A DNA stretch of 64,000 nucleotides from Microterricola gilva (GTDB lineage Bacteria; Actinomycetota; Actinomycetes; Actinomycetales; Microbacteriaceae): positions 1,054,001-1,118,000 of the forward strand of contig NZ_SHLC01000001.1 in assembly GCF_004217495.1 (NCBI RefSeq), written 5' to 3'. Positions 38,684-61,257 of the stretch are shown piece after piece. The position numbers and the translations under genes were made by a program. The notes under the pieces were generated by a model that did no database searches, was not told the DNA's origin, and saw nothing but the letters and a program-made list of their open reading frames with translations. Each line of letters starts with the position of its first letter. Positions within the stretch are counted from its first letter, which is position 1.

Positions 38684-38743
38684 GTTCGCGCGAGCCGTGG
38701 TCTCGACGCGGCCGTGGACGGCCTTCTCCTGTTGAGATCAGCC

Positions 38744-60532: not shown

Positions 60533-60840
60533 CGTTGCTCGAGTAGGCCGCCGCTGCTGCTTCCGTTGGTCGAGTAGTCCGCTTGCTGTTGCTTACGTTG
60601 GTCGAGCAGGCCGCTTGCGGCCGTATCGAGACCCGGTTCGGGTTGAAACGGGTTTCTGCGGGTCTCGATACGCTCGTTCCTCGCTACTCGACCGGCGGAG
60701 GCGGGGCCGAGCTTGTTTACGTTGGTCGAGTAGGCCGCTTGCGGCCGTATCGAGACCCGGTTTCGGGTTGAAGCGGGTGTCTGCGTGGTCTCGATACGCT
60801 CGTTCCTCGTTCCTCGCTACTCGACCGGCGGAGGCGGGGC
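60533..60840. repeat. Intergenic palindromic repeats (two full, two partial units)
   Basis: Two ~120-bp units start at about 60593 and 60717 (TTACGTTGGTCGAG...). Both contain GTATCGAGACC and its complement GGTCTCGATAC, and both end with CTACTCGACCGGCGGAGG. Two shorter CGTTGGTCGAGTA-type fragments lie at about 60533-60590. GGTCGAGTAG near the start of a unit complements CTACTCGACC at its end, so each can fold into a long hairpin. This sequence type is familiar from many Microbacteriaceae intergenic regions. The right-hand unit runs into the GIY-YIG gene and supplies its stop. Confidence 0.85.
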
Positions 60841-61146
60841 GCTCTCGGTGCCGGAACGCGGAGTCTGGAACCGCTTCTTCGCGAGCGATGGCAGCACGGT
60901 GTCGCCGATGCCGTCGATCAGCGCCCGTCGCTTCGCACGTCCCCAGCCTTGAACCTGCTTCTCGCGTCCATGGGCCTCCGCGATCGACTCGTACTCCTCG
61001 AAGTACACCAGCCGAACGGGCCGTCGTCGTCGCGTGTATGCCGCCCCGCCATCGTGGTTGTGCTGCCACACGCGCTGCTCAACGTCCCACGTGCTGCCAA
61101 CGTAGAACGACTTGTCGGCGCACTCCACGATGTACATGTACGGCAT
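60817..61146 (-). CDS. GIY-YIG nuclease family protein (UPF0213-like)
   Basis: 109-residue single-domain GIY-YIG protein. MPYMYIVECADKSFYVGST has the two Tyr blocks (MYI... FYVGST), Arg is in WDVEQRVWQHN, GGAAYTRRRRPVRLVYFEEYESIAEAHGREKQVQGWGRAKRRALI contains the conserved Glu in GREKQ. It resembles small structure-specific nucleases (YhbQ/URI type). Its last seven codons (ending APPPPVE) and stop come from the adjoining palindromic repeat. AATACT lies 6 nt before the ATG, a variant leaderless box. Confidence 0.87.
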   Translation of the reverse strand: MPYMYIVECADKSFYVGSTWDVEQRVWQHNHDGGAAYTRRRRPVRLVYFEEYESIAEAHGREKQVQGWGRAKRRALIDGIGDTVLPSLAKKRFQTPRSGTESAPPPPVE

Positions 61147-61257
61147 TGATGCAGTATTTCGGATTGTCGCGCTCGCCCGCAGAAGTTATCCACAGCACGT
61201 CGCGAGACGCTTGCTACTCGCTACTCGCTACTCGGCCAGCGGAAGACCGCGAGAGCC

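Follow-up and report, generated by a model that had tools for sequence, protein, structure and literature searches.

A subfamily of small GIY-YIG nucleases probably works together with short hairpin repeats, as a GIY-YIG counterpart of the RAYT/REP systems; we put the probability of this reading at roughly two in three. The enzymes known so far for repeats of the REP type are tyrosine transposases; the present system, seen in several phyla, links another nuclease fold with another hairpin signature. The window, i.e., the whole analysed stretch of 64,000 nucleotides (positions 1054001-1118000 of a 3.67-Mb single-contig genome, below called the home genome), carries one such nuclease gene together with its repeats (Table 1).

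The nuclease gene and its repeats in the window

The earlier note on this DNA, made from the letters alone, had described a GIY-YIG gene near a repeat, and the Pfam profile search bore this out: PF01541, the only Pfam match, covers residues 1-72 of the product of the intact 109-aa frame with E 9e-17. The note had also held that the repeat encodes the stop and the last seven codons of this gene. This proved correct, the 24 nt at the gene end being a letter-for-letter copy of the same part of unit 1; the seven codons read APPPPVE, the stop codon occupies 60817-60819, and the right arm of unit 2 supplies the gene end, where GGTCGAGTAG corresponds to Val-Glu-stop. The two full and two partial repeat copies that had been reported were likewise found; both inverted units stand at the 3' end of the nuclease gene, and the two partial arms precede them.

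Table 1 Features of the window (positions counted from its first letter)
Feature	Position	Strand	Basis
Intact nuclease gene (GIY-YIG, 109 aa) with the catalytic positions retained	60817-61146	minus	ORF, PF01541 search, alignment
Stop and last seven codons of the nuclease gene, within the repeat; identical to 60684-60707	60817-60840	minus	sequence
REPIN-like inverted unit 1, with arms at 60600-60633 (left) and 60661-60693 (right)	60600-60693		sequence, repeat search, folding
REPIN-like inverted unit 2, with arms at 60724-60757 (left) and 60787-60826 (right)	60724-60826		sequence, repeat search, folding
Partial left arm	60533-60551	plus	repeat family D3
Partial left arm	60564-60582	plus	repeat family D3
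Degenerate right arm, 5' of the gene, contains the GCTACTC triplet	61199-61243	plus	repeat family D2, G118 comparison
Degenerate single arm in another intergenic place; full inverted unit there in G118	38699-38728	plus	G118 comparison

The term "palindromic repeat" used in that note holds as far as the inverted symmetry is concerned, but each copy is better read as an inverted pair of arms, each with an inner hairpin, than as a single palindrome. A single arm consists of GGTCTCGATACG, then a short variable hairpin and then CTACTCGACC, and the layout of the full unit is GGTCGAGYAG-hairpin-CGTATCGAGACC ... GGTCTCGATACG-hairpin-CTACTCGACC. Such inverted arm pairs resemble REPINs (PMC3116915). Folded as single-stranded DNA, units 1 and 2 gave z values of -2.9 to -3.9 on both strands, with none of 200 shuffles equally stable.

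The strict arms all stand on the same side of the window gene; its other side has a degenerate arm, 80% similar to a full one. The GCTACTC triplet (61213-61234), which had been taken as a hint of repeat sequence on this side, is real and lies within the degenerate arm, but the arm folded alone was no more stable than shuffles (z 0.22). In the nearest relative, G118, where the nuclease gene and its neighbours are syntenic at ~90% DNA identity, a complete inverted unit stands at the place of this arm. The strict arm pattern occurs in 18 copies in the 3.67-Mb home genome (reversed control, 0), and none of 300 random places in the window between 800 and 58000 had a classed hairpin nearby. The co-location of the home repeat and the nuclease is beyond local chance.

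Association of nuclease and repeat within Microbacteriaceae

The family set comprised 149 genomes, at least 90% complete, from 78 genera, and the nuclease was called present at E <=1e-3. Under these settings, 36 of the 149 genomes carry the nuclease and 44 carry the relaxed arm pattern, in 1 to 652 copies, the reversed control being found in none of the 149. Of the 36 nuclease genomes, 27 had the arm, vs 17 of the 113 others, i.e., 27 genomes have both, 9 the nuclease alone, 17 the repeat alone and 96 neither (odds ratio 17, p 5e-11, kinship uncorrected). All four counts remained unchanged when the arms flanking the nuclease were removed, and with a threshold of 10 copies, again after this removal, 19 of 36 nuclease genomes were positive vs 8 of 113 others. 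Of the 30 nuclease loci examined for nearby arms, 25 came from repeat-bearing genomes, and in 14 of these 25 an exact arm was found <=500 bp from the nuclease, with 0.25 expected from repeat density. Among the 13 genera having both nuclease bearers and non-bearers, arms were restricted to the bearer in 4, present in both in 5, mixed in 1 and present in neither in 3, and the reverse case was not observed.

The genome-wide mapping and the comparison with nuclease-free genomes proposed in the earlier note therefore both gave a positive answer, and the repeats were not equally common far from the gene (14/25 vs 0.25) or in genomes lacking it (27/36 vs 17/113), which is what that note had said would speak against the pairing; the association persists with the flanking arms removed, and the genera with arms solely in the bearer number four against none reversed.

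The match is incomplete on both sides, which counts against the pairing. Nine of the 36 nuclease genomes are without the TAG arm, and the TAG arm occurs in 17 genomes that have no nuclease of the window kind, with up to 652 copies (in G041). An overlooked nuclease was considered for the latter and rejected: the PF01541 search in all 17 (and in three nuclease genomes) detected no nuclease of the window kind in the 17, the frames found there being of the UvrC type (~627-816 aa), together with a few others of 290-375 aa and one of 657 aa. Loss of the nuclease after repeat expansion would explain the repeat-only genomes. Four genomes with no detected nuclease of the window kind (G041, G063, G022 and G123) hold 107 to 652 arms or cores; either the gene was lost there after the expansion or the repeats are kept by something else.

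One hairpin fold in many lineages

The repeats flanking nuclease genes of different lineages are unlike in sequence and follow a common plan of stem, YGAG, loop or inner hairpin, CGAR and stem. When YGAG is opposed to CGAR, two adjacent G.A mismatches are enclosed on either side by a Watson-Crick pair; adjacent G.A pairs between pyrimidine and purine are stable in DNA.

The enrichment of repeats around the gene does not depend on this motif. In 80 named loci from many phyla, 12-mers occurring at least three times per locus cover 9.1% and 6.9% of the flanking 1 kb on the two sides, compared with 1.0-1.8% further out and 0.9% of the nuclease gene itself. With the motif at a stem of at least 5, the density <=600 bp from the gene was 12.7 times that found >1.5 kb away (90 hairpins near and 47 far; 31 of the 80 loci), the permuted-letter controls giving ratios of 0.2 to 2.6. 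Since the 80 named loci include the source loci of the motif, two fresh draws were made with the motif fixed, each from the 30 best-scoring loci less one already seen, i.e., 29. In Bacteroidota, where 116 of 296 genomes carry the nuclease, 24 of the 29 loci had the motif; 90 hairpins lay near the gene as against 3 far from it, and the permuted controls gave 0-2 of 29. The truncated locus L283, whose start had been placed ~460 bp off, was counted here as a miss. Five of the 12 loci from which the motif was derived are from Bacteroidota, so this draw tests new genomes and not a new phylum. The third draw came from the phylum of the L052 genome (titled Pseudomonadota), with the nuclease in 69 of 345 genomes; 12 of its 29 loci had the motif, with 24 hairpins near and 5 far (permuted controls, 0-2 of 29). 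Among clostridial loci, the stem-5 motif with some loop was found in 1 of 20. Note that some genes were counted twice under two identifiers (probably L022 with L103, and L035 with L106).

At the scale of whole genomes, TGAGCN{2,5}TCGAA exceeded its reversed control in the genomes of L022 (396:22), L052 (115:6), L062 (81:2) and L065 (37:1). The excess was weak, about twofold, in those of L063 (51:25), L064 (44:18), L097 (57:30) and L043 (62:32), and three clostridial genomes gave 8:4, 1:0 and 1:3.

The stems were analysed with cores taken without any stem requirement. In 152 distinct cores near the named genes, flanking positions 1-3 were complementary at frequencies of 0.80, 0.78 and 0.85, and in 64 cores near 16 Bacteroidota genes at 0.94, 0.86 and 0.84, vs 0.32, 0.26 and 0.37 in the 283 cores that lay far from the gene in the named loci; no far core was obtained from the Bacteroidota loci of this test. 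Within the home family, the pair beside the mismatch covaries, C standing with G in 132 cases, T with A in 27, and the positions being mismatched in 6 (counts over overlapping loci). A free stem around a fixed core is as expected of recognition by structure, and hairpin recognition by the nuclease is well supported.

Two side observations belong here. The Bacteroidota loci L265, L267, L270, L273, L274 and L280 have a TAG...GTAT inner core identical to that of the window in another phylum, which may reflect shared ancestry, transfer or convergence. In L043 (Dokdonia sinensis), the nuclease frame is interrupted and the flanks are long AT-rich palindromes unlike the other classes.

Position of the hairpins around nuclease genes

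Among the named non-clostridial loci, 31 of 60 had classed hairpins on either side of the gene. The same was found for 20 of 29 best copies from Microbacteriaceae and 16 of 27 Bacteroidota loci, as well as for 9 of 20 further Microbacteriaceae copies and 1 of 15 loci of a wide Actinomycetota draw. The suggestion in the earlier note that repeats flank the gene on both sides thus holds widely, as the Microbacteriaceae best copies illustrate. The main class was the same on both sides in 75 of 77 two-sided loci. Any classed hairpin was present in 43 of the 60 named non-clostridial loci, vs 10 of 206 control places located 2.6 and 4.2 kb off (both sides in 1 of 206). None was detected in the remaining 17 of the 60, in 13 of 15 loci of the small wide Actinomycetota draw, or around the clostridial short forms (0 of 20).

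These controls bear on the notion of an artefact of shared descent, with the gene standing by chance in repeat-rich intergenic stretches and the counts inflated by kinship. The counts are indeed uncorrected for kinship, and the nuclease tree and hairpin class disagree within Microbacteriaceae (see below); but control places in the same loci yielded only 10/206 against 43/60 at the nuclease, the same core stands beside nucleases of other phyla within different repeat sequences, and four genera have the arm only in the nuclease bearer and none the reverse, all of which makes this explanation hardly credible.

The arms closest to the gene were compared in 18 two-sided loci: they bracket it as inverted ends in 14, have the opposite orientation in 3 and the same direction in 1. 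The three oppositely oriented loci, including the two congeners of the window, are so arranged because whole REPINs stand on both sides. The gene thus often, and not always, occupies the place of the REPIN spacer. The arms themselves occur in family genomes singly, in tandem or in inverted pairs, in which a minus arm precedes a plus arm across a short spacer.

Hairpin classes, paralogues and the nuclease tree

The hairpins were sorted by the sequence between GAG and CGA into the classes TAG...GTAT, TG...TAT, GAGCG...GTCT, CYNGY, CGNAGY and GYNCT; the classes were defined after the sequences had been viewed, and each nuclease was assigned its class from the flanking hairpins. Paralogues within one genome can differ in class: in G118, copy 1 is of the TAG class and copy 3 of the CYNGY class, G019 has TAG and CYNGY, G116 has GAGCG and TG, and G033 has TAG, TG and GAGCG.

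Of the 11 genomes with a CYNGY-class nuclease, 8 had at least 10 CYNGY repeats, vs 10 of 138 others (p 1e-6, kinship uncorrected); among the 36 nuclease genomes, these 8 of 11 compare with 4 of 25 of the rest (p 0.002). For at least 10 TAG repeats, the corresponding values were 14 of 18 vs 15 of 131 (p 9e-9, kinship uncorrected) and 14 of 18 vs 7 of 18 (p 0.04). Cross-class comparisons of nuclease class with repeat class in the 149 genomes gave nothing. Because the class is read from the flanks, which makes the matching partly circular, it was recounted without the flanking hairpins: CYNGY remained at 8 of 11, and TAG gave 12 of 18 vs 15 of 131 (p 1e-6), which among the 36 nuclease genomes (12 of 18 vs 7 of 18, p 0.18) was not significant. 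At the same time, the home genome has 107 CYNGY repeats and no CYNGY-flanked nuclease, and G123 has 299 of them and no nuclease. Within the home family, Microbacteriaceae, class matching is weak, and this, too, counts against the proposed pairing.

On a tree of 103 nucleases, 99 of them classed (built from 96 protein columns and poorly resolved), class required 25 changes vs 50.8 when shuffled, with 0 of 200 shuffles as low. Fewer changes than in shuffles were also obtained within Bacteroidota (9 vs 14.1) and Actinobacteria (15 vs 24.5), with 0 of 300 shuffles as low in each. Within Microbacteriaceae, the 13 changes vs 14.8 shuffled were not significant (45 of 300 as low); either short-range class switching is common, or the nuclease tree is too weak. 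The relation of loop class to nuclease class would provide a testable code.

Additionally, a small second GIY-YIG gene is present in three congeners, at 3024728-3024994 of the home genome (L261), C3:759514-759777 of G118 (L242) and C1:1737665-1737901 of G058 (L244). These second copies gave no match in the search for the signature described below, and no classed hairpins were found around them, copy 2 of G118 having one unclassed stem-4 match.

The enzyme

The signature EK[QRK][VIL]QxW, around the presumed catalytic glutamate, was found in 94 of 103 hairpin-flanked rows, vs 17 of 49 rows that are neither flanked nor clostridial and none of the 20 clostridial ones; the 20 clostridial short forms thus differ from the window subfamily in lacking both the signature and the classed hairpins. 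In 16 aligned nuclease sequences, Y5, R25 and E62 are invariant and Y15 is nearly so, and we take these four residues to be the catalytic positions of the GIY-YIG superfamily, in which the window enzyme is placed by its PF01541 domain and these conserved positions. The structure model has a mean pLDDT of 76, with ~90 in the core and <50 in the tail at 87-107, which is partly encoded by the repeat. The nuclease of Leifsonia sp. Root4 shares 90% identity with that of the window over 96 residues. Among solved structures, the closest in both sequence and fold are 1ZG2 and 1YWL of UPF0213 (YazA/YhbQ-type), which share the same domain: Foldseek matched them at E 2e-5 and 2e-3, respectively, and sequence similarity to 1ZG2 (E 1e-11) makes the window nuclease a member of UPF0213. 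One stop codon within the matched frame was observed in 15 of 172 nuclease loci, so that decay of these genes seems to be fairly frequent.

The GIY-YIG fold is also that of homing endonucleases, whose genes adjoin their presumed target, as does the window gene. A free-standing endonuclease of the homing type could cut at the hairpins and land there, the repeats multiplying otherwise, and the persistence of repeats in 17 nuclease-free genomes and the non-syntenic nuclease locus of G058 are in line with this. We regard it as rather unlikely, however: the repeats are far commoner in genomes with the nuclease, the partners are many-copy hairpins, the gene stands between inverted arm ends in 14 of the 18 two-sided loci, and the group I intron endonuclease model TIGR01453 gave only E 0.19, with 11.7 bits being far below the cut-off of 56, which leaves the window enzyme outside that homing family.

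The next matches in Foldseek (E 0.02-0.06) were to Slx1 (6seh, 7cq2 and 4xm5), likewise a GIY-YIG nuclease and one that acts on branched DNA; we know of no link of Slx1 to dispersed repeats. Slx1 is a eukaryotic repair enzyme, inactive without SLX4, and Slx1-Slx4 acts on Holliday junctions and flaps (PMC8287910). A domesticated Slx1-like structure-selective nuclease with a house-keeping role might resolve or trim repeat cruciforms and so make the repeats tolerable, whence their accumulation nearby and in its genomes; the structured substrate, the single nuclease copy in many genomes and the fold neighbourhood of Slx1 would agree with such a role. It appears very unlikely all the same, as it explains neither the hairpins at the gene itself nor the paralogues with different classes, and the patchy presence of the nuclease (36/149) and the 15/172 copies with a stop do not suit a house-keeping gene.

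Proposed mode of action and comparison with known systems

The analysis shows co-location, a mismatch core that stays fixed while its stems covary, paralogues beside hairpins of different classes and the lack of a RAYT; for the preferred reading, a nuclease working with its hairpin repeats, we infer direct binding, cutting and spread by cut-and-repair. Most likely, the nuclease would bind the YGAG/CGAR hairpin, formed either in single-stranded DNA at the replication fork or by cruciform extrusion, and would nick or cut at the bound hairpin. Host repair against another copy, or template switching, would then copy the hairpin or REPIN into new intergenic places, and the bracketed nuclease gene would be carried along with the repeats. 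Arms of one and the same class commonly stand on either side of the gene, so that the gene thus bracketed would be the autonomous form, with the REPINs as its non-autonomous counterpart. To our knowledge, GIY-YIG enzymes hydrolyse DNA, and we know of no strand joining by them, which sets them apart from RAYTs and leaves the spreading step without direct precedent; a nuclease without known joining chemistry may thus drive dispersal.

In RAYT systems, a small nuclease gene is bracketed by inverted hairpin repeats, the repeats are dispersed as inverted doublets, and their abundance tracks the gene (PMC2817692, PMC3116915). The system described here, with an enzyme of unrelated fold, largely resembles RAYT/REP in these features, namely, the small nuclease gene bracketed by inverted short hairpin repeats, the dispersed inverted doublets and the repeat abundance that tracks gene presence (27/36 vs 17/113 and, for CYNGY, 8/11 vs 10/138; kinship uncorrected). 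The differences are that the window enzyme is GIY-YIG and not Y1/HUH, and that the hairpin core is YGAG...CGAR with adjacent G.A mismatches. The REP tag at the hairpin is GTAG or CGTC (PMC3733652); here, GTAG is found only in the TAG class, and the others read CCTGT, CGGAGT, GCTCT, etc., between GAG and CGA. Some REP families are reported to be without a dedicated transposase (PMC3733652).

The RAYT/REP-like pairing proposed in the earlier note is supported by co-location, correlated presence and bracketing; the enzyme itself is not a RAYT (no Y1). Given this difference in the enzyme, the system is an analogue of RAYT/REP, and its mode of action would be an analogue of a known kind. A search for PF01797 (Y1 transposase, the RAYT domain) detected none in the home genome and one among the 149 family genomes, in a genome with neither repeat nor nuclease, so that the system occurs in a family where Y1 transposases were hardly detected. 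On the basis of this search, RAYT was rejected as the mobiliser. It is extremely unlikely that a RAYT, past or present, mobilised the repeats with the GIY-YIG gene as a bystander: the REPIN-like layout would suit a RAYT, as would the GTAG next to the inner hairpin of TAG-class repeats, but GTAG is missing from the other classes, Y1_Tnp is confined to that single genome, and flanking in several phyla is not expected of a bystander.

Among the papers listed for the subject in an open-access library, which mostly lacks subscription journals and preprints, none described a pairing of GIY-YIG with REP repeats. PMC9465073, the one paper with both GIY-YIG and "repetitive extragenic", contains the terms in a gene table and a reference, and no mention of GIY-YIG was found in PMC3733652 and PMC12306157. 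The system is called new because its enzyme is not a RAYT and none of the listed papers pairs GIY-YIG with REP repeats. On balance, we lean towards a wider formulation, in which it constitutes a second, non-transposase enzymatic class of bacterial REP system: GIY-YIG nucleases in Actinomycetota, Bacteroidota and other phyla would recognise hairpins with a tandem G.A core, spread them via cutting and host repair, and be the source of common repeats like CCTGAGCCTGTCGAAGG. This would offer a likely origin for widespread repeats and a possible function for many small GIY-YIG proteins now named by domain alone.

Repeat turnover between relatives

For the detection of empty sites, 464 kb of the home genome was compared with 520 kb of G118. 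Of the 21 clusters of G118, 11 were absent at the corresponding place of the home genome, 3 were shared, 2 were of another class, 1 lay far apart and 4 were unmapped; conversely, the 10 clusters of the home genome gave 3 absent, 3 shared, 1 of another class, 1 odd and 2 unmapped. Most of these differences concern whole intergenic stretches, plain gains of a single hairpin in G118 numbering two (202230 and 164205). A gap of <60 was obtained at 164205, 294717, 161662 and 114795: at 294717 a hairpin pair replaces ~30 nt, at 161662 the alignment is unclear, and 114795 is the nuclease locus itself. No target-site duplication was seen at the few aligned site differences between G118 and the home genome. 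Empty sites were rejected as proof of movement. As to a possible insertion sequence with MITEs, inverted ends were seen around genes and units, without a target-site duplication at those few differences.

The repeats are labile between these close relatives while the nuclease locus is kept. Around the nuclease of G058, none of the five home neighbours occurs within ~60 kb, which fits movement of the gene and also a rearrangement. A longer further repeat, GGCTCGAGCGAGCGGCGCCGCGACGAAGGAGC..., is present in several copies in G118 contig 1 (~174800-175700), near an arm of the window repeat family, and parts of it also occur at other intergenic places.
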